Source: Rhodocyclaceae bacterium
GTDB lineage: Bacteria; Pseudomonadota; Gammaproteobacteria; Burkholderiales; Rhodocyclaceae
Assembly: GCA_013388985.1 (NCBI GenBank)
Contig: JACAEF010000007.1
Span: 1 to 64,000, forward strand
Direction: 5' to 3'
Length of the DNA: 64,000 bases
In this document: one piece after another, positions 6,649 through 14,572 of the stretch
Layout: each line of letters begins with the position of its first letter
Numbering within the stretch: the stretch's first letter is position 1
Program-made: the position numbers and the translations under genes
Notes under the pieces: generated by a model
Databases searched by the model: none
What the model saw: only the letters and a program-made list of their open reading frames with translations
Told to the model about the DNA's origin: nothing

Positions 6649-8457
6649 ATGAATCCCAACAACCGTCTCGCCAGCGAGACTTCTCCTTATCTGCTGCAGC
6701 ACGCCGACAACCCCGTCGACTGGCTGCCCTGGGGCGACGAAGCACTGGCGCTCGCGCGCGCCGAGGACAAGCCGATCCTGCTCTCGATCGGCTATTCGGC
6801 CTGTCACTGGTGCCACGTGATGGCGCACGAATCCTTCGAGGACGAGGCGGTCGCCGCGGTGATGAACCGGCTGTTCATCAACGTCAAGGTCGACCGCGAG
6901 GAGCGTCCCGATCTCGACCAGATCTATCAGAGTGCGCACCAGATGCTCACCGGACGTCCCGGCGGCTGGCCGCTGACGCTGTTCCTCACCCCCGAGGGCA
7001 CGCCCTTCTATGGCGGCACCTATTTCCCGAAGGAAGCGCGTTACGGCCTGCCGGGCTTCGTCGAGCTGTGCGAACGCATCAGCGAAATCTGGCGCACGCG
7101 GCGTCCCGACATCGAGGCGCAGAACCGCGAATTGCGCGCGGCGATGAACCGCGAGGTACCGCCACCCGCCATCGAGCTCGACGCGCGGCCGATCATGCGG
7201 CTGCGCGCGATCCTGCTCGGCAGCTTCGATCGCGAGCATGGCGGCTTCGGTGGCGCGCCGAAATTCCCGCACCCGACCGACCTCGCCTTCCTGCTGCACC
7301 GCACGAACGATCCCGAAGCGCAGGAGGTCGCTCTTTTCACCCTGCGCCGCATGGCGATGGGCGGCATTCATGATCAGCTCGGCGGCGGCTTCTTCCGCTA
7401 CAGCGTCGACGCCCGGTGGGAGATTCCGCACTTCGAAAAGATGCTCTACGACAACGCCCAGCTGCTCGGCCTCTACGCCGATGCTTTCACGCTGAGCGGA
7501 GATGCGTTTTTCCGCCGGGTCGCCGAAGGCATCGTCGGCTGGCTCACGCGCGAGATGACCAGTCCGGAAGGCGCCTTCTACTCGTCGCTCGACGCCGATG
7601 CGGAAGGCGAGGAAGGGCGCTTCTACGTCTGGGACCGCGCCGAGTTCGCCCGGCTGCTCACGCCGCAAGAATCGGCGCTGGCGATACGGCACTGGGGGCT
7701 CGACCAGCGGCCGAATTTCGAAAACCGCTCCTGGCATCTGAAGATCGCCGCACCGCTGACGCCGGGCGAAAAGACGCTGATCGAATCCGCGCGAGCGAAG
7801 CTGTTCGCCGCGCGCGAAAAGCGTGTCCGCCCGGGCTGCGACGACAAGATTCTGACGAGCTGGAATGCGCTGACGATCGCCGCGCTGAGCCGCGCCGCCC
7901 GCCGCCTCGATCGCCCCGACTGGCTGACCGCGGCGCGACGCGCGCTCGACTTCCTGAAAACGCATCACTGGCGAAATGGCCGGCTGCTCGCCACCTCGCG
8001 CGCCGGCCAGGCGCATCTGCCCGCCTACCTCGACGATCACGCCTTCCTGCTCGCCGCGCTGCTCGAACTCGACGAAGCCGACCCGCGCGACGAAGATCTC
8101 GATTTCGCGCAACAGCTCGCCGACGCGCTGCTCGCGCGTTTCGAGGACAGGAAGAACGGCGGCTTCTTCTTCACCGCCCACGATCACGAAAGTCTGATCC
8201 AGCGGCCGAAGCCCCCCCACGACAACGCGCTGCCCGCGGGCAACGGCGTCGCCGCGCTGGCATTGCGCCGACTGGGCGAGTGCCGTGCCGAAATCCGCTA
8301 TCTCGGCGCGGCGCGGCGCGCCTTGCAGGCCTTTGCCGACCCGCTCGCCCGCCAGCCATCCGGCTGTGCCACCCTGGTCATGGCGCTCGAAGCCGAGCTC
8401 GCCGTCAACCCGCCAGGATGTAGCGACGTTGTGTGTAGCGTACCGGCAAGCAACTGA
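6649..8457 (+). CDS. Thioredoxin-domain protein, DUF255 / YyaL (SSP411) family
   Basis: This 602-residue cytoplasmic protein starts with the family signature [22 protein letters not shown] thioredoxin-like domain follows with the CxxC-type motif SACHWCHVM, then [10 protein letters not shown] and [13 protein letters not shown]. The rest is an (alpha/alpha)6 barrel-like region with [12 protein letters not shown], typical of this family and its eukaryotic SPATA20 relatives. The biochemical role is unknown. It is somewhat shorter than many members, mostly near the C-terminus. ESALAIRH is encoded by a copy of the 25-base motif (7668-7692). Confidence 0.9.
7668..7692 (+). repeat. 25-base dispersed coding motif, site 2 (in the DUF255 gene)
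   Basis: It matches 22 of 25 positions, with a CGAT centre in place of CGAG. It is read as ESALAIRH, the same frame as in ilvD. Confidence 0.6.
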
Positions 8458-8548: not shown

Positions 8549-8860
8549 ATGAAGATTGTCGCTGCCGCACTGATCGCCGCTGGCGTGATGGTTTCCGCTC
8601 CCGCGATGGCCAACCTCGAGCTGGCCAAGAAGAGCAACTGCATGTCCTGCCACATGGTCGACAAGAAGCTGGTCGGCCCCGCCTATCAGGATGTCGCCAA
8701 GAAATACGCCGGCGACAAGGATGCCGTCAAGAAGCTCACCGAAAAGGTGAAGAAGGGCGGCAAGGGCGTCTGGGGCGAAGTGCCGATGCCGCCCAACTCC
8801 GCCGTCAAGGACGCCGATATCGAGACCCTGGTGAAGTGGATTCTCGCCGGCGCGAAGTAA
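8549..8860 (+). CDS. Small periplasmic cytochrome c (class I, c-551/c-552 type)
   Basis: This 103-residue protein has an N-terminal signal peptide ending at about residue 21 (APAMA-NLELAKK). It has one heme site CMSCH at residues 31-35 and a likely axial methionine, M80, in GEVPMPPNS. It closes with ADIETLVKWILAGAK. This is the pattern of small class I electron carriers that serve terminal oxidases or nitrite reductases. Cytochrome c maturation proteins and Sec export are needed. It is preceded by GAGGAAG and followed by a strong terminator, so it is probably monocistronic and well expressed. Confidence 0.93.
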   Translation: MKIVAAALIAAGVMVSAPAMANLELAKKSNCMSCHMVDKKLVGPAYQDVAKKYAGDKDAVKKLTEKVKKGGKGVWGEVPMPPNSAVKDADIETLVKWILAGAK

Positions 8861-8917: not shown

Positions 8918-9571
8918 TCAAGCCAGCGTGTCCGCACCGCCGCCTTGCCCTTGCGGCAGCGTCGCGTTCGCCAACAGGATCAGGCGGGCGATCTCGGCGG
9001 TGGAATGCACGCCGAGCTTTTCCATCGCATGGTGACGGTGCACCTGGACGGTCTTGTCGCTGATCGACAACTTGCGCGCGATGGTCTTGTTGCCATCGCC
9101 CGCCGCGAGCAGTTCCGCGACCTCGCGTTCGCGCTGGGTGAGAGAGGCGAGCCGGCCTTGCGCCGCCTCGATGCTGGTGCGCGAGAGGCATTGCTGGATG
9201 CTGTAACGCACCGCGCGTCCGACGGCATCGAGCAGCACGTGGTCCTTGCAGGGTTTCTCCAGGAAGTCGATCGCGCCGCGCTTCATCGCCTGCACCGCCA
9301 TCGGCAAATCGCCATGCGCAGTCAGGAAAATCACCGGCAGACAGATGGCCTGCGCACGCAGGATGCGCTGCACCTCCAGACCGCCCATCAGCGGCATCAT
9401 GACATCCAGCACCAGACAACCCGGCACGTCACGTTGATAAGCGTCGAAGAATTCCTGTGCGGTGGCGAATGCCCGGGAACGCCACCCGGCGGCATCGAGC
9501 AGGAAGCTCAGCGAGTCGCGCATCGCCGCGTCGTCGTCGACGACATAGATCAGGGCATCCCGTTCATTCAT
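8918..9571 (-). CDS. Response regulator, FixJ/TtrR type (receiver + LuxR HTH)
   Basis: This 217-residue regulator has an N-terminal receiver domain (VVDDDAAMRDS, phospho-acceptor D56 in CLVLDVMMP, then LTAHGD and the conserved K in LEKPC). A C-terminal LuxR-type helix-turn-helix follows (LTQREREVAELLAAG ... DKTVQVHRHHAMEKLGV). Its start overlaps the stop of the kinase gene (ATGA, 9568-9571), so the two are translated together and form one two-component system. By analogy with TtrR it should activate a nearby promoter; the divergent UPF0324 gene is the natural candidate. Confidence 0.92.
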   Translation of the reverse strand: MNERDALIYVVDDDAAMRDSLSFLLDAAGWRSRAFATAQEFFDAYQRDVPGCLVLDVMMPLMGGLEVQRILRAQAICLPVIFLTAHGDLPMAVQAMKRGAIDFLEKPCKDHVLLDAVGRAVRYSIQQCLSRTSIEAAQGRLASLTQREREVAELLAAGDGNKTIARKLSISDKTVQVHRHHAMEKLGVHSTAEIARLILLANATLPQGQGGGADTLA

Positions 9572-11358
9572 GCGCTTTCCTCCTCAGGTAGCCAGAAGCT
9601 GGCGCACACACCCGTCTGCGTGTTGCGCAGCTGCAGCGATCCGCCATGGGATTCGACGATCCCTTTGCTCAGAGACAGCCCGAGACCGAGGCCCTCCGGC
9701 TTGGTGGTAAAAAAAGGCTCGAACAGCCGGGCGCGATACGCTTCGTCGACCCCGCCTCCCTGGTCGCACACCACCACGCGGTAACCGAGCGCCTCGGCCG
9801 AGAGGCTCACCTCGATCGGCTGGGCAGGGTTTCCCCGTCCTGCCTGTGCCTCGAAGGCATTCTGCAACAGGTTGAGCACGACCTGCTGGAGCTGGATCGC
9901 GTCGGCCCGCACCCGGTAGCGATCGGAGTCGGCGTCTGCCCGCCAGACGATCTCTGCGTCGGGACGGCCGACGCGGAAGAGATCGATCGCCTCCCTGACG
10001 AGTGGCGCCAGGCTCACCGCCCTGACACTGCCGCCCCCTTTCCTGGCGAAGCTGCGGATCTTCTCGATGGTCTGCGCGGCGCGGCTGCTCTGACGTTCGA
10101 TTTCCTGACAGCCGGAACGCAACGGCTCGGCTTCCAGCCGCCCGGCGGCGACGCGCCGCTCGATGCCACGCGCATAATTGGCGATCGCCGCGAGCGGCTG
10201 CTTCAACTCATGGGCGATCGCACTCGCCATGCCACCGAGGATCGCCATCCGCCCGGCATGTTCGAGCTCGCTCTGACGCTCGCGCATCGCCGCTGCCAAA
10301 CGTTCCTTTTCGGCATGCATCTCGTTCAGTTCGCGGGTGCGGCGCTTGACGAGATAATCGACACGCACGGCATGCACGACCAGGGCGATGAGCAGGATGG
10401 CGACGATACCGAGGCCGACGCGGTGGCGCTGGAGCAACGCGGCGAGGGTTTCCTCCTGCAAGGTGGCGTATCGGCCGATGCGCAGATCGCGGAACAGGTC
10501 GTCGACGATGTCGTAATGGGCGGGCGTCGACCATTGGCTGCCTTCCGGGGTGCGCGGCATTTCGAGCAGGGCGATCGCCACCTTCTTGGCGAGCGCCGGA
10601 TCGGTATGGCCCAGCGCGGCAAACGGCCAATCGGGATAGAGGCGCGAGGAGGTCTGGCAGCGAAAACCAGGAATCTGCCGGGGAGACAGCACGCGCAGCG
10701 CGCCGGGTTCGATCTCTCCTTGCGCCACCATCTGCTCGATCAGACACGTCTTGACGATGCCCGCATCGGCCCTGCCTTCCTTGACGGCGCGCGCGATCGC
10801 CTGGATCGGAAAACCGACGAACTCCAGCCGCCCCAGATCACGGTCGGGATCGACGCCCGCCAGCAACAGCTCGCGCGCGGCAATCTGGTAGCAGCAGAAT
10901 GCATCCGGACTGGCGGCGAGCAGATGCTTGCCTGAGAGATCGGCGAGCTCACGGAGCGGGGATTCCGCGCGCACGATCACTGCCGAGCCGACGGCCTGCG
11001 TCGGCGAGATGCCAAGCGGCGAATCCAGGGTGACGAGGCGCGTGACGCCGTCGCTGTGCTCCAGTTCGCTGTAATTCCCCGCATTGGTGATGACGAAGTG
11101 AACGCTGCCTTCGCGCACTGCCCGGCGCATGCCGGGATGGTCGAGGCCGACGAGGGCGAAGTTCAACTCCGGCAGGCGCCGGTTGAGCCAATCGAAAACG
11201 TAGGCCCACTCCTGCTCGGCGTTCTCGATGCCCTTGTCCGCGAGCACACCGACGCGGATTTCCTGTCGTGTTGCCGTCCCGCCGCTGCACACCCCCGCCT
11301 GACCGAGCAAGAGCACAGCCGCCGCTAGCACAAAAAACCTGCGCAGTAAATTGGACAA
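9568..11358 (-). CDS. Sensor histidine kinase with PhnD-like periplasmic domain (TtrS type)
   Basis: I start at the TTG at 11358, which has GAGG eight bases upstream, giving 596 residues. A longer TTG frame from 11430 is less likely. Order: signal/anchor helix (1-25); PhnD-like ligand domain (about 33-280) with EIRVGVLADKG, a cysteine pair in DAFCCYQ and GFRCQTSS; membrane span (about 314-334); coiled linker; HisKA with H383 in AIAHELKQP; and an ATPase domain with GLGLGLSLSKG. This is the architecture of the tetrathionate sensor TtrS. No tetrathionate reductase is nearby, so the ligand is unknown and may be an anion related to the neighbouring exporter. Confidence 0.9.
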   Translation of the reverse strand: MSNLLRRFFVLAAAVLLLGQAGVCSGGTATRQEIRVGVLADKGIENAEQEWAYVFDWLNRRLPELNFALVGLDHPGMRRAVREGSVHFVITNAGNYSELEHSDGVTRLVTLDSPLGISPTQAVGSAVIVRAESPLRELADLSGKHLLAASPDAFCCYQIAARELLLAGVDPDRDLGRLEFVGFPIQAIARAVKEGRADAGIVKTCLIEQMVAQGEIEPGALRVLSPRQIPGFRCQTSSRLYPDWPFAALGHTDPALAKKVAIALLEMPRTPEGSQWSTPAHYDIVDDLFRDLRIGRYATLQEETLAALLQRHRVGLGIVAILLIALVVHAVRVDYLVKRRTRELNEMHAEKERLAAAMRERQSELEHAGRMAILGGMASAIAHELKQPLAAIANYARGIERRVAAGRLEAEPLRSGCQEIERQSSRAAQTIEKIRSFARKGGGSVRAVSLAPLVREAIDLFRVGRPDAEIVWRADADSDRYRVRADAIQLQQVVLNLLQNAFEAQAGRGNPAQPIEVSLSAEALGYRVVVCDQGGGVDEAYRARLFEPFFTTKPEGLGLGLSLSKGIVESHGGSLQLRNTQTGVCASFWLPEEESA

Positions 11359-11469
11359 TTCGATTACCTCGCTTGGGCGAACGACCAATATCCATCCGCG
11401 CTTTGCATGCCTATATTGCCAATAAAGCAAGGCGCCTGACGGTTTTCAACCAACGGAGGAGGGAGAAAC
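11359..11469 (+). promoter_or_regulatory. Divergent promoter region between the TtrS-like kinase and the UPF0324 gene
   Basis: These 111 bases separate two divergent starts. They contain an imperfect inverted repeat, GCGCTTTGC (11398-11406) and GCAAGGCGC (11427-11435), 20 bases apart and differing at one position. An AT-rich TATATTGCCAATAAA lies between the arms. This is a reasonable operator candidate for the LuxR-type regulator encoded next door, by position and symmetry only. AGGAGGG precedes the ATG at 11470. Confidence 0.35.
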
Positions 11470-12615
11470 ATGAGCATCGCGGAAGAAACGGGCTTCCTGG
11501 GCAAACTGCCCAAGGCCCTGCCCGGACTGGCACTGCTGATCGGCACGATGGTGGTGATCCGGCTCTGGGTCGAACCCTGGATGACAAACGCCGTCATCCT
11601 CGGCCAGAAAGGCTGGCTGATCAAGGTCACCCATCTCAATTACATCCTGCTCGGCATCATCATGGGCCTGCTCTACCGCAACGTGATCTTCGGCGGCAAG
11701 CTGCCCGAAATCTTTGCCGACGGCTTCAAGCTCTCGCGTCTGTTCATCAAGACCGGCATCATCCTGCTCGGCTCGCTCTACACGGTACAGGCGATCGTCA
11801 AGCTCGGCGCGATGGCGATCTTCCTGATCGGCGGCTTCGTCGTATTGTCGATCGTCATGGTGCTGTGGCTCGGCAAGCTCTTCGGCATGGATCGATCGAT
11901 GACCGGCGTGATGGCCAACGCCTGCTCGATCTGCGGCGTCTCCGCAGCCGTCGCCACCGCGCCGGCGGTCGAAGCCAAGGCCTCGCATGTCGCTTACGCG
12001 ATCGCCACCATTCTCGGCTTCGGCATCCTGACGATGTTCATCAGCCCCTTCATCGGCCATGCGCTGGAACTCAACGACCTGCAGTATGGCGCCTGGGTCG
12101 GCACCGGCATCCTCAACTCCGGCCAGGTGCTGGCCGCCTGTCTCGCCTTCAATCCGAATGTCGCGCCCGGGACGGCGGTATCGGTCGGCGAGATCTGGAA
12201 CATCATGCGCGTGATCTCGATTCCGTTCGCGGTGTTCGCCGTCACCGTCTGGTACTGGGCGGGCCACGAGCAGCCGCAGGGCCAGCGCAAGTCGCTCACC
12301 CAGCTCCTGGTCGAGAAGTTCCCGGTCTTCGTCTTGGGCTTCCTCGCCATGGTGCTGCTCACCAGCATCGGTGCCTTCGGCGATGCCGGCATCAAAGGCG
12401 GACCGCCGGCCTCGGCGACGATCAAGATGATCCGCGACTGGATGCAGTGGATCTTCGGCATCGGGCTGGTCGGCATGGGCGGCTACATCGATTTCAAGGA
12501 GCTCAGGCAGGCCGGCGGCACGCCGCTCAAGGTCGGCCTGATCGTCGGCGCCACCAAATACGTGCTGGCTTTGGTGCTGGTGCTGTTGATTCGCGACCAT
12601 CTCGTCGAAATCTGA
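11470..12615 (+). CDS. UPF0324 / YeiH-type putative sulfate or sulfonate exporter
   Basis: This 381-residue inner-membrane protein has about ten spans. It matches the conserved family PF03601 (YeiH, often called putative sulfate exporter). Visible family stretches are LNYILLGIIMGLLY, the signature NACSICGVSAAVA, WVGTGILNSGQVLAA and GMGGYIDFKEL. Substrates are not firmly established for the family; sulfur compounds such as sulfate or sulfoacetate have been proposed. It leads an operon with a 49-residue membrane protein and a universal stress protein, and faces a TtrSR-like sensor pair that probably controls it. Confidence 0.87.
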   Translation: MSIAEETGFLGKLPKALPGLALLIGTMVVIRLWVEPWMTNAVILGQKGWLIKVTHLNYILLGIIMGLLYRNVIFGGKLPEIFADGFKLSRLFIKTGIILLGSLYTVQAIVKLGAMAIFLIGGFVVLSIVMVLWLGKLFGMDRSMTGVMANACSICGVSAAVATAPAVEAKASHVAYAIATILGFGILTMFISPFIGHALELNDLQYGAWVGTGILNSGQVLAACLAFNPNVAPGTAVSVGEIWNIMRVISIPFAVFAVTVWYWAGHEQPQGQRKSLTQLLVEKFPVFVLGFLAMVLLTSIGAFGDAGIKGGPPASATIKMIRDWMQWIFGIGLVGMGGYIDFKELRQAGGTPLKVGLIVGATKYVLALVLVLLIRDHLVEI

Positions 12616-12633
12616 TCTTTGGGAGAGGACATC

Positions 12634-12783
12634 ATGGCAGGAACGAAAATCGGCTCCGAGACCATGGCCAGCGCGGCCAAGGGCAAAATGACGCTGTTCC
12701 GCGACGACCGGCAGGAAGACTGGGGGGCGATCGTCTTCAGCATCCTGATCATCGCCGTGATCGTCGTGCTGACGATGAAATGA
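12634..12783 (+). CDS. 49-residue single-span membrane protein
   Basis: The small frame starts at ATG 12634 after GGGAGAGG and ends at TGA 12781-12783. It has a polar N-terminus (MAGTKIGSETMASAAKGKM), an acidic patch DDRQEDW and then one hydrophobic helix, GAIVFSILIIAVIVVLTMK, to the end. Its stop overlaps the start of the universal stress gene (ATGA, 12780-12783). Good ribosome site, tight spacing and coupled overlap make it a real gene. It is likely an accessory subunit of the UPF0324 transporter; no family is recognised. Confidence 0.78.
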   Translation: MAGTKIGSETMASAAKGKMTLFRDDRQEDWGAIVFSILIIAVIVVLTMK

Positions 12784-13229
12784 ACGGGGCGGGCACCATC
12801 GCGGTCGCCGTCGACGGCTCGCCGGCCAGCGAGGCGCCGCTCGCGGAGGCGCTGCGCCTGGCGCGCGACGGGCGGCGTCCGCTGCTCGGCGTGTTCGTCT
12901 TCGATACCGGCTGGGCGGATTACATCGGCAACGACTGGCAATCCGCCGCCGGCGCGCGCCAGGGTTTTCTCGACTACATCCGCGGCCAGCTCGAAGCGCA
13001 GGCCGAAGCGGCTCGGGAACAGTTCGTGGCGGCGACGCGCGGCCACGCGCAAGCGCGGTTCGCCGTGATTTTCGGCGAGCCGCTGGAAACCCTCTGCGAT
13101 CTGATGGCGCGCAGCGAGGCGGAGACCCTGGTCGCGGGCAGGGAAACCTTCCAGGTCTGCGGCCGACCCAGCGTCAAAACGCTGGCGCGCGACCTCGCGC
13201 GCCGGGTGCGCTCCTTGCGCATCGTCTGA
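12780..13229 (+). CDS. Universal stress protein family
   Basis: This 149-residue protein has the UspA fold: an opening strand TIAVAVDGSPASEAPLAEALRLA, a central variable part, and FGEPLETLCDLMARSEAETLVAGRE near the end. The usual ATP-binding G-2x-G-9x-G(S/T) stretch is not clear, since the end reads VAGRETFQVCGRPSVKTL, so nucleotide binding is doubtful. It is translationally coupled to the 49-residue membrane protein and closes the UPF0324 operon. In such operons Usp domains may act as cytoplasmic regulators of the transporter; that is inference. Confidence 0.82.
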   Translation: MNGAGTIAVAVDGSPASEAPLAEALRLARDGRRPLLGVFVFDTGWADYIGNDWQSAAGARQGFLDYIRGQLEAQAEAAREQFVAATRGHAQARFAVIFGEPLETLCDLMARSEAETLVAGRETFQVCGRPSVKTLARDLARRVRSLRIV

Positions 13230-13336: not shown

Positions 13337-14572
13337 ATGAATTCCCAGCTCAAAACGCTTTCCTTGTCCATCGCCGCCGCTGTCGTGATGATCGGCTGCG
13401 GCAAGAAGGAGGAAGCCCCGCAACCCGCTCCGCAGGCCGCCGCGCCCGCTCCGGCCGCCCCCGCGCCCGTGACCGTGAAGATCGGCCACGTCGCGCCGCT
13501 CACCGGCGGCATCGCCCACCTCGGCAAGGACAACGAAAACGGCGCGCGCCTGGCGATCGACGAGGCCAACGCCGCCGGGATCAAGCTCGGCGGCGCGCCG
13601 GTCAAGTTCGAACTGGTCGCCGAGGATGACCAGGCCGATCCCAAGATCGGCAACACCGTCGCGCAAAAGCTCGTCGACGCCAAGGTCGCCGGCGTCGTCG
13701 GCCATCTGAATTCGGGCACGACGATTCCCGCCTCGGCGATCTACAACCAGGCCGGCATCCCGATGATTTCCGGTTCTGCGACCAACCCGGCGCTCACCGA
13801 ACAGGGCTTCAAGAACGTCTTCCGCGTCGTCGGCCGCGACGACCAGCAAGGTCCAGCCGTCGCCAACTACCTGATCGCCACCGCCAAGCCAAAGGTGGCT
13901 GCGGTGATCGACGATGCCACCGCCTATGGCGAGGGCCTCGCCAACGAGGTCGAAAAGACCTTCAAGGCCGCCGGCATCAAGGTGCTGCCGCGCGAGAAGG
14001 GCACCGACAAGACCGCCGACTGGAAGGCCGTGCTCACCAAGATCAAGGGCAAGAAGCCCGATGTCGTCTTCTATGGCGGCATGGACGCCACCGGCGGCCC
14101 GCTGCTCAAGCAGGCGCGCGAGCTGAAGATCAATGCGGTGTTCAGCTTCGGCGACGGCGCGTGCACCGACAAGATGGCCGAGCTTGCCGGCGCCGCCGCC
14201 GAGGGGCTGATCTGTTCGCAGGCCGGCATCCCGGTGCAGGCTGCGGGCAAGAAGTTCCTCGATGCCTACAAGGCCAAGTTCGGCATCGACCCCATCCTCT
14301 ACTCGCCCTTCACCTACGACGCAACCTGGCTGCTGGTCGAGGCGATGAAGAAGGCCGACTCGGCCGATCCGGCCAAGTATCTGTCGGCGCTGGCGGCGAG
14401 CAGCTACGATGGCGCCTCCGGCCACATCGAGTTCGACGAGAAGGGCGATCGCAAGGATGCCGAAATGACCATCTTCACGATGAAGGAGGGCAAGGTCACG
14501 CCGCTGGCGATCATCAAGGGTGACAAGTCGCTGACGCTGGACGAATACGCCGCCCAGTCCGCCGCGAAGTAA
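13337..14572 (+). CDS. livK: Branched-chain amino-acid type ABC substrate-binding lipoprotein
   Basis: This 411-residue type I periplasmic binding protein carries a lipoprotein signal (VVMIGC, C21). An Ala/Pro linker of about 20 residues then separates the membrane anchor from the LivJ/LivK domain that begins VTVKIGHVAPLTGG. Typical stretches are VVGHLNSGTTIPASAIYN, FRVVGRDDQQGPAVANYL and GYDGASGHIEFDEKGDR-like (SSYDGASGHIEF). It delivers a ligand, probably leucine, isoleucine, valine or a related amino acid, to the LivHMGF complex encoded next. A lipid-anchored, rather than soluble, binding protein is unusual in E. coli terms. RBS AAAGGAG precedes ATG 13337. Confidence 0.93.
   Translation: MNSQLKTLSLSIAAAVVMIGCGKKEEAPQPAPQAAAPAPAAPAPVTVKIGHVAPLTGGIAHLGKDNENGARLAIDEANAAGIKLGGAPVKFELVAEDDQADPKIGNTVAQKLVDAKVAGVVGHLNSGTTIPASAIYNQAGIPMISGSATNPALTEQGFKNVFRVVGRDDQQGPAVANYLIATAKPKVAAVIDDATAYGEGLANEVEKTFKAAGIKVLPREKGTDKTADWKAVLTKIKGKKPDVVFYGGMDATGGPLLKQARELKINAVFSFGDGACTDKMAELAGAAAEGLICSQAGIPVQAAGKKFLDAYKAKFGIDPILYSPFTYDATWLLVEAMKKADSADPAKYLSALAASSYDGASGHIEFDEKGDRKDAEMTIFTMKEGKVTPLAIIKGDKSLTLDEYAAQSAAK

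Follow-up and report, generated by a model that had tools for sequence, protein, structure and literature searches.

At positions 8918 to 13229 of a 64,000-nucleotide stretch of DNA (the window) from a Rhodocyclaceae bacterium (genome G000, 2.9 Mb; contig C112), a UPF0324 transporter gene, an open reading frame (ORF) for a 49-residue membrane protein, and a Usp gene follow each other on the plus strand and diverge from a response regulator and a histidine kinase gene on the minus strand. Comparison of genomes shows that the three plus-strand genes form a conserved module (termed the cassette), that their transporters make up a UPF0324 subfamily, that the cassette is associated with dsrA, and that the kinase belongs to a clade of TtrS-like sensors facing UPF0324 genes. 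The cargo of the carrier, the ligand of the sensor, the control of the promoter, and the docking and gating of the carrier are what we infer. The plus-strand features are as follows:

11470 to 12615, plus strand: UPF0324/PF03601 transporter of the short type (type A), 381 amino acids (aa) (PF03601, 174.1 bits; Pfam cut-off, 24.5)
12634 to 12783, plus strand: 49-residue single-helix membrane protein with the motif F..DR.ED.G (conserved partner, purifying selection, predicted helix)
12780 to 13229, plus strand: Usp-family protein, 149 aa, with a GNDWQ motif (PF00582, 31.6 bits; cut-off, 24)

The original prediction, made from this DNA alone, had described five genes in a divergent layout with coupled starts. 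The five ORFs were confirmed on the strands and at the coordinates first described, with one 4-base ATGA overlap between kinase and regulator and a second between the 49-residue ORF and the Usp gene. The transporter gene and the 49-residue ORF are separated by 18 bases and lie in one frame.

The 49-residue protein, which the original prediction thought automatic annotation might overlook, matches no family in Pfam or NCBIfam. Among 60 relatives, three genomes encode a version that is 82 to 90% identical and a fourth one that is 62% identical, and there are five weaker matches, the one in G026 lying within a longer unrelated ORF. The ratio of nonsynonymous to synonymous differences (pN/pS) was 0.24 to 0.30 in six comparisons, which indicates purifying selection. 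A profile of 17 small proteins (A1), in which M1, F22, D25, R26, E28, D29, and G31 are invariant, gave 29 matches in 28 of 369 genomes of the class, 21 of them strong (20 genomes; E of 4.5e-7 or less) and 8 weak (E of 6.8e-4 or more). Each of the 21 strong matches follows a PF03601 match on its own strand within 1 kb, which is the case for none of the 8 weak ones, and a Usp gene comes next in 20 of the 21 (the exception is locus L058). A search of 398 genomes of the phylum returned 10 matches, three already known and seven new, and all seven are accompanied by UPF0324 and Usp. Scanning genome contigs for the transporter yielded 10 loci, and in each of them UPF0324 is followed by the small gene and then by Usp (one UPF0324 gene is cut by a contig end). 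Conservation of the small gene in relatives, on which the original prediction had made its proposal depend, is thus found, and the gene is linked to the transporter. The shortness of the 49-residue ORF and its lack of a family model would suit a chance ORF or a leader peptide, but the pN/pS values, the F, D, R, E, D, and G residues invariant in 17 sequences, the same partner at every strong class match, and the upstream rather than downstream position of the small gene in type C loci (see below) make this explanation highly improbable. Judged by its conservation, the 49-residue ORF is a real gene, and its product is very probably a fixed partner of this transporter clade.

The window transporter scores 78.7 bits with TIGR00698, the model of the YeiH family, far below the cut-off of 232.6. 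The 369 class genomes contain 93 PF03601 matches, of which 41 are canonical YeiH (more than 200 bits), and profile A1 detected the small gene at none of these 41. In a tree of 77 UPF0324 proteins, the 39 carriers of a small gene and three cut type B genes lie on one side of a branch with a Shimodaira-Hasegawa-like approximate likelihood ratio (SH-aLRT) support of 95 and a single label change (quick tree method, long branches flagged), and E. coli YeiH falls outside this group. The loci are of three types. Type A has a transporter of ∼381 residues, as in the window. In type B, a transporter of ∼520 to 560 residues with an insertion is followed by a small protein matching RG(S/T).L(S/T)(I/V)F..DR.ED and then by Usp, with one further protein (SRPBCC-like by eye; no Pfam match for the one scanned) in 17 of 18 class matches. 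In type C (L088 of G555 and L124), which was found by reading L088 beside the G555 kinase and by a motif scan, the small gene (...TFSAERKED plus a helix) is upstream of the transporter gene and Usp is downstream; profile A1 misses these small genes, so the count of small proteins in the class genomes is too low.

As controls, we used 36 other UPF0324 loci (L125 to L163 minus L134, L136, and L137, which are type B genes ending at contig ends), several of which are cut by contig ends (L130 and L147 among them). In none of the 36 did we find R.ED followed by a helix-like stretch within an ORF of at most 110 residues, and a Usp profile made here found no match in 37 loci (the 36 and E. coli yeiH). 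Of the 40 loci L125 to L164 (E. coli included), 8 have a YeiE-like LysR gene nearby, compared with none of 18 cassette-type loci. Since the carriers group in the tree and the control loci have neither gene, the small protein and Usp are, by sequence comparison, markers of one UPF0324 subfamily.

Two more UPF0324 groups of ∼440 to 610 residues, without small protein and Usp, are represented by L126 to L135 and L138 to L146 (L134 being a cut type B gene); dsrA is also present in five of the tested genomes that carry such genes (G093, G115, G170, G207, and G216). In one gammaproteobacterial metagenome-assembled genome (MAG), a type B set (UPF0324, Usp) directly precedes a complete type A set (L018, 4792 to 9807), and types A and B can therefore coexist in tandem. 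A type B cassette at L027 (5925 to 11104) is accompanied by genes for a metallophosphoesterase and for a protein kinase with a fused Usp domain, which are possible signaling partners, and a metallophosphoesterase-like gene (7027 to 7791, by eye) lies just before the type A cassette of L013. At L025 (6729 to 6971), the small protein is extended beyond its helix by an Ala/Pro-rich tail of ∼30 residues.

We examined the distribution of dsrA in the class sample: 17 of the 20 small-protein genomes have it, compared with 54 of the 176 tested genomes that lack the small protein (Fisher P, 3.4e-6; raw counts without kinship correction). The genomes without the small protein comprise those with canonical YeiH (dsrA in 0/17), those with other PF03601 types (5/10; G071 left out), and those without any PF03601 (49/149). 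A first set was hand-chosen (26 plus 26 genomes; in the comparison half, dsrA was in 0/13 with canonical YeiH and 4/13 without PF03601), and a later set consisted of all 150 remaining class-sample genomes from G076 to G245. The cut-off was E 1e-20 for the first set and E 1e-60 for the later one, every first-set genome counted being also below 1e-60. When cassette genomes outside the class sample are included, 22 of 26 have dsrA; in the window genome, it is on contig C149. On contig C8 of G035 (L012/L024), dsrA and a type A cassette lie ∼42 kb apart, and genes for a molybdenum and iron-sulfur enzyme (SoeAB-like by eye, no model over its cut-off) converge on the cassette at L012.

UPF0324 transporters are widespread, and a clear phenotype has been described only recently, in that Salmonella yeiH is needed for growth with sulfite, its promoter being raised by sulfite via the LysR protein YeiE (PMC12880088). 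In Hyphomicrobium denitrificans, yeiH was the most affected gene on thiosulfate, with a 526-fold rise, and is a candidate for sulfite export (PMC11582611). Sulfite resistance through YeiH together with the dsrA enrichment makes a role of the window UPF0324 protein in sulfur oxyanion export more plausible, by analogy and by gene content. As an association, the enrichment fits the export of cytoplasmic sulfite made by Dsr.

We found no sequence relative of the transporter in the PDB at an E value of 1 or less and no Foldseek match under E 0.001, so its fold class rests on VIA-align and on the Pfam clan. VIA-align neighbors included AspT (Z 14.5), NapA (14.4), and SbtA-SbtB (7egk, 14.0), and NHE1, ASBT, and CitS were also among them (root mean square deviation [rmsd] of 3.9 to 6.2 for AspT, NapA, SbtA-SbtB, and NHE1); Z values of ∼13 being common for helical proteins, 14.0 to 14.5 is only moderately telling. 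PF03601 sits in the CPA/AT clan (PMC8562792), and the modeled fold resembles the elevator-type class. Neighbors of this kind, among them the bicarbonate carrier SbtA with its regulator SbtB, as well as ASBT, CitS, and AspT, would also suit the export or import of a different substrate, be it another oxyanion (sulfate, thiosulfate, molybdate, selenite) or bicarbonate, in which case the association with dsr would reflect lifestyle only. The presence of dsrA in a third of the genomes without any PF03601 and the molybdate phenotypes of a Desulfovibrio cluster described below (PMC10102598) point the same way. Against such a cargo stand the sulfite-specific behavior of the family member YeiH, in both phenotype and induction (PMC12880088), the response of H. 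denitrificans yeiH to thiosulfate (PMC11582611), and the sulfur enzymes that adjoin many TtrS-like kinases; we regard another cargo as possible but doubtful.

Across from the cassette lie the sensor genes and the intergenic region, with the following features:

8918 to 9571, minus strand: FixJ/TtrR-like response regulator, 217 aa, receiver plus LuxR-type helix-turn-helix domain (PF00072, 88.8 bits; PF00196 [GerE], 73.7 bits)
9568 to ∼11358, minus strand: TtrS-like sensor histidine kinase (PF12974 [Phosphonate-bd], 125 bits, plus HisKA [PF00512] and HATPase_c [PF02518], all over Pfam cut-offs)
10501 to 11268, minus strand: PhnD/PtxB-like periplasmic sensor domain, residues 55 to 310 (AlphaFold2 model; structure and sequence match to PtxB)
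10891 to 10896, minus strand: Cys179-Cys180 pair in the predicted anion-binding loop (alignment of 45 kinases)
11359 to 11469, no strand: divergent intergenic region (alignment with G017 and G002)

The kinase likely starts with a TTG at 11358 behind GAGGTAA, although the frame is open to 11430, and the residues of the sensor are numbered from the TTG at 11430. Its domain composition (PhnD-like sensor, HisKA, and HATPase_c) is of the TtrS type. The TtrS model NF040750 gives it 360.8 bits (cut-off, 750), and the regulator scores 164.2 bits with the TtrR model NF040749 (cut-off, 290) and 208.8 with the NCBIfam FixJ model (cut-off, 255), each under its cut-off. Searches in the family (150 genomes) and in the order (399 genomes) yielded 45 kinase loci; because only the best few candidates per genome were scored (8 or 3), this is no census, and some kinases were possibly missed. 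In a tree of the 45, the window kinase forms a clade of four (support 100/100) with those of G017 (79% identity), G002 (77%), and G555 (67%). All four have a UPF0324 gene within the 1.5-kb flank, whereas none of the 41 others faces one in the flank at hand (1.5 kb, wider for 19). The UPF0324 protein opposite the G555 kinase is of type C and 34% identical to that of the window, and since it belongs to a different type, the pairing of kinase and UPF0324 appears to have outlived an exchange of the transporter.

Of the 45 kinases, 19 have a TtrA-like gene nearby, 7 a TsdA-like cytochrome, 1 a cytochrome of the octaheme tetrathionate reductase family, 2 a PhsA-like enzyme together with a TauE/SafE-type gene, and 4 UPF0324; the remaining 12 lack all of these neighbors (of the 12, L117 is near a distant molybdoenzyme and L110 near a DsrE-like gene). 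In the sister clade of five kinases, three are beside a TtrA-like gene. The probes were named by eye and later checked with models: the TtrA probe is nearest TtrA but under the cut-off (1190 of 1750 bits), the "PsrA" probe is nearest PhsA (526.6 of 694, under the cut-off), the octaheme cytochrome is over its cut-off, the TsdA probe is a SoxA/TsdA cytochrome domain, and TauE and DsrE are over their Pfam cut-offs. The two kinases that adjoin a TauE/SafE-type (sulfite exporter) gene, along with a PhsA-like molybdoenzyme, are at L079 and L087 (wide loci L102 and L089), and G555 has a second TtrS-like kinase, beside a PhsA-like enzyme (L089). From their neighborhoods, TtrS-like sensors seem to serve many sulfur genes, including two exporter families.

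In the window genome, the best match to the 1,032-residue TtrA-like probe is 33% identical over only ∼130 residues, so the statement that no tetrathionate reductase is found at the locus extends to the whole available genome sequence, and we rejected tetrathionate respiration in this organism. TtrA was likewise not found in G002, G017, and G555 (for the four clade genomes, best matches of 33 to 34% over ∼125 to 175 residues). Tetrathionate as the signal, which the original prediction took over from TtrS, is not transferable here, because kinase and regulator score under the TtrS and TtrR cut-offs and because the predicted anion-binding loop is altered.

Cys179-Cys180 is present in 4 of the 45 kinases, which are exactly the UPF0324-facing clade, and the others carry Gly-Gly, Ser-Gly (three kinases), or Gly-Ala (one kinase) at this position, while Cys229 and Cys258 are found in all 45 sensor domains. 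The stretch FCCY aligns with TSSH of PtxB, FSGH of ArrX, and NSGY of AioX, which we take to be the anion-binding loop in these three proteins. AlphaFold2 modeled kinase residues 41 to 330 with a predicted local distance difference test score (pLDDT) of 91.8, and the predicted domain is closest to PtxB (Z 24.4, 249 aligned residues, rmsd 3.1; E 3.4e-5 by sequence), ArrX, and PhnD. Given the altered loop, the sensor of the UPF0324-facing clade has likely changed its ligand. A thiol-binding oxyanion such as arsenite, read through Cys179-Cys180 and exported by the carrier, would agree with a vicinal Cys pair unique to the clade among the 45 kinases and with the arsenate/arsenite binding proteins ArrX and AioX among the nearest solved folds (Z 20 to 24). 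We noticed no arsenic gene among the neighbors read (no model search was aimed at arsenic genes), and both the TtrA-like and DsrE-like genes beside sister kinases and the link of the UPF0324 family to sulfite speak against this ligand, which appears quite improbable.

The sensor genes are not a constant part of the locus. Only 3 of the 13 type A loci with a readable upstream flank (3.4 to 8 kb) have the kinase. While UPF0324, the small gene, and Usp kept their order in all 10 loci of the contig scan, an order that also takes in the kinase was seen only in three genomes, all of this genus, and we rejected it as a conserved one. In 35 further genomes, chosen for a cassette, a cassette-type UPF0324, or the weak small-protein match of G034, a search for a related kinase (up to 36 candidates scored per genome) gave a single match, in G014, with 40% identity and on a contig other than that of the cassette. 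The "one regulated unit" of the original prediction is therefore unsupported as a conserved order; what is supported is the tie of the sensor clade, in all four members, to UPF0324. The two-component system could also be a mere neighbor, a TtrS-like sensor of tetrathionate or thiosulfate for genes elsewhere, as suggested by the 10 of 13 type A loci without it, by the TtrA-like and TsdA-like genes near 19 and 7 of the 45 related kinases, and by an intergenic inverted repeat no better than chance. We consider this unlikely, since the four clade kinases face UPF0324, that of G555 with a different type, and the 41 others do not, since no TtrA was found in the four clade genomes, and since, in E. 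coli, the regulator of a Desulfovibrio cluster of similar build turns on the promoter of that cluster's transporter (PMC10102598; PMC3333781).

The inverted repeat noted in the intergenic region by the original prediction is present at 11386 to 11418 (CAATAT, 21 bases, ATATTG; arms at 11386 to 11391 and 11413 to 11418), and both arms recur in G017 and partly in G002. Such a repeat occurred in 382 of 1,000 shuffled sequences, and we therefore rejected the one here as evidence of an operator by itself. In the alignment of positions 11359 to 11469, the blocks TACCTCG.TTGGG and CCAATATCC are kept in G017 and G002, and a promoter and terminator scan found none.

We propose that the operon at 11470 to 13229 encodes an anion exporter that is inducible and belongs to a separate UPF0324 subfamily; its working unit would be the membrane carrier, the 49-residue protein as a one-helix accessory subunit, and the cytosolic Usp. 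The most likely cargo would be sulfite from a cytoplasmic reverse dissimilatory sulfite reductase (rDsr). The PhnD-type periplasmic domain, with its Cys-Cys pair in the predicted binding loop, would bind a sulfur oxyanion, not necessarily tetrathionate, and the kinase would phosphorylate the FixJ-like regulator, which in this genus would activate the divergent promoter. The helix of the small protein may dock on the carrier, with the charged stretch F..DR.ED at the membrane edge holding or reading Usp, and Usp may in turn gate the carrier. For the mechanism as a whole, a three-protein sulfite exporter under a divergent, retuned TtrS-like sensor in this genus, we see an even chance. A bolder version seems unlikely to us: the carrier would need its one-helix microsubunit, through which Usp would gate sulfite export; the TtrS-derived kinase, having given up tetrathionate, would sense sulfite or other thiol-reactive sulfur species via the vicinal Cys pair in its anion pocket; and the whole would be a safety valve of rDsr-type sulfur oxidation, with the Desulfovibrio cluster as its counterpart in sulfate reducers. 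If the proposal is true, it would answer how bacteria that make sulfite by Dsr shed this toxic product, give a role to an unnamed small protein family, add an example of a retuned tetrathionate-type sensor, and provide a frame for the unexplained Desulfovibrio cluster.

Transporter and 49-residue protein were modeled as one read-through chain, which could be built because the two genes share a frame, from an alignment of such read-through rows. The best of five models had a mean pLDDT of 72.6 and a predicted template modeling score (pTM) of 0.74 (pLDDT range, 45.9 to 72.6). The small protein has a disordered N-terminal part and one helix at residues 27 to 48 (block pLDDT, 55 to 76).

Several observations weigh against the proposed exporter. 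The small helix was modeled only in one chain with a disordered linker. The window Usp lacks G..G(8-11)G[STN], the usual motif of ATP-binding Usp, which occurs in 1 of 24 relatives, and nucleotide gating by Usp is therefore unsupported; a G[DN]DW[LQ] motif is present in the window Usp and 22 of the 24. The dsrA counts carry no kinship correction, the gene also occurs without any PF03601, and it is missing from 4 of the 26 cassette genomes: G330, G378, and G260, which are fragmented or incomplete, and G051, which is complete. Most type A loci do without the kinase. The cargo of YeiH of the E. coli/Salmonella type may not carry over, because this YeiH is outside the window group and has neither the small protein nor Usp. 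As for the Desulfovibrio cluster, its authors state that its role is unclear, its phenotypes concern molybdate, and mutants disrupted in its transporter had an advantage there (PMC10102598), while its regulator was tied by the authors to lactate use (PMC3333781). Overall, the interpretation in the original prediction is partly supported.

Among known systems, those of SbtA-SbtB and TeaABC-TeaD pair a carrier with a small cytosolic regulator. SbtA is of the same broad fold class as the window transporter, and SbtB is PII-like, not a Usp; TeaABC is a TRAP transporter. To our knowledge, neither has a one-helix partner of this kind. The window layout has a precedent in print, the cluster DVU0539 to DVU0545 of Desulfovibrio vulgaris, in which a kinase/regulator pair faces genes for a Usp, a PSE transporter, a 133-residue one-helix protein, and a Usp (PMC10102598). 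By its published description, this cluster, from a dsrAB organism, is like the window in its divergent kinase/regulator, PSE transporter, one-helix protein, and Usp, and unlike it in the length of the membrane protein, the two Usps (one of them first), and the molybdate stress phenotype. YeiE-YeiH of Salmonella and E. coli likewise places a UPF0324 gene divergent from its sulfur-oxyanion-responsive regulator, with 120 bp from start to start (PMC12880088) versus 111 bp in the window if the kinase starts at 11358. It differs from the window in a LysR regulator that binds sulfite (PMC12880088) and in the lack of small protein and Usp, and E. coli yeiH is followed by nfo. TtrSR/ThsSR share with the window a PhnD-like sensor kinase and a LuxR-type regulator beside a presumed target gene (PMC5408782); the window pair departs from TtrSR in its scores, in the lack of an adjacent tetrathionate reductase and of TtrA in the genome, and in its Cys-Cys loop. 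Among the matches listed in a search of open-licence PMC literature, we found, apart from the Desulfovibrio papers, no report of the small protein or of UPF0324 together with Usp; nor did we find there a description of the small protein as a conserved partner, of its UPF0324 subfamily, of the tie to dsr, or of the altered TtrS-like clade.

Lastly, we considered the surroundings of the locus. Plasmid records gave 90 matches, none spanning 80% of the query and all below 60% identity. The locus is flanked upstream by genes for a cytochrome c (8549 to 8860) and a DUF255 protein and downstream by a gene for a branched-chain amino acid type (LivK-type) binding protein (13337 to 14569) and ABC genes. 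In a Rhodocyclaceae MAG (L015), the same outer flanks are found without the two-component system, the cytochrome c gene directly adjoining UPF0324; judging from these flanks, it looks as if kinase and regulator were inserted or lost at this site.

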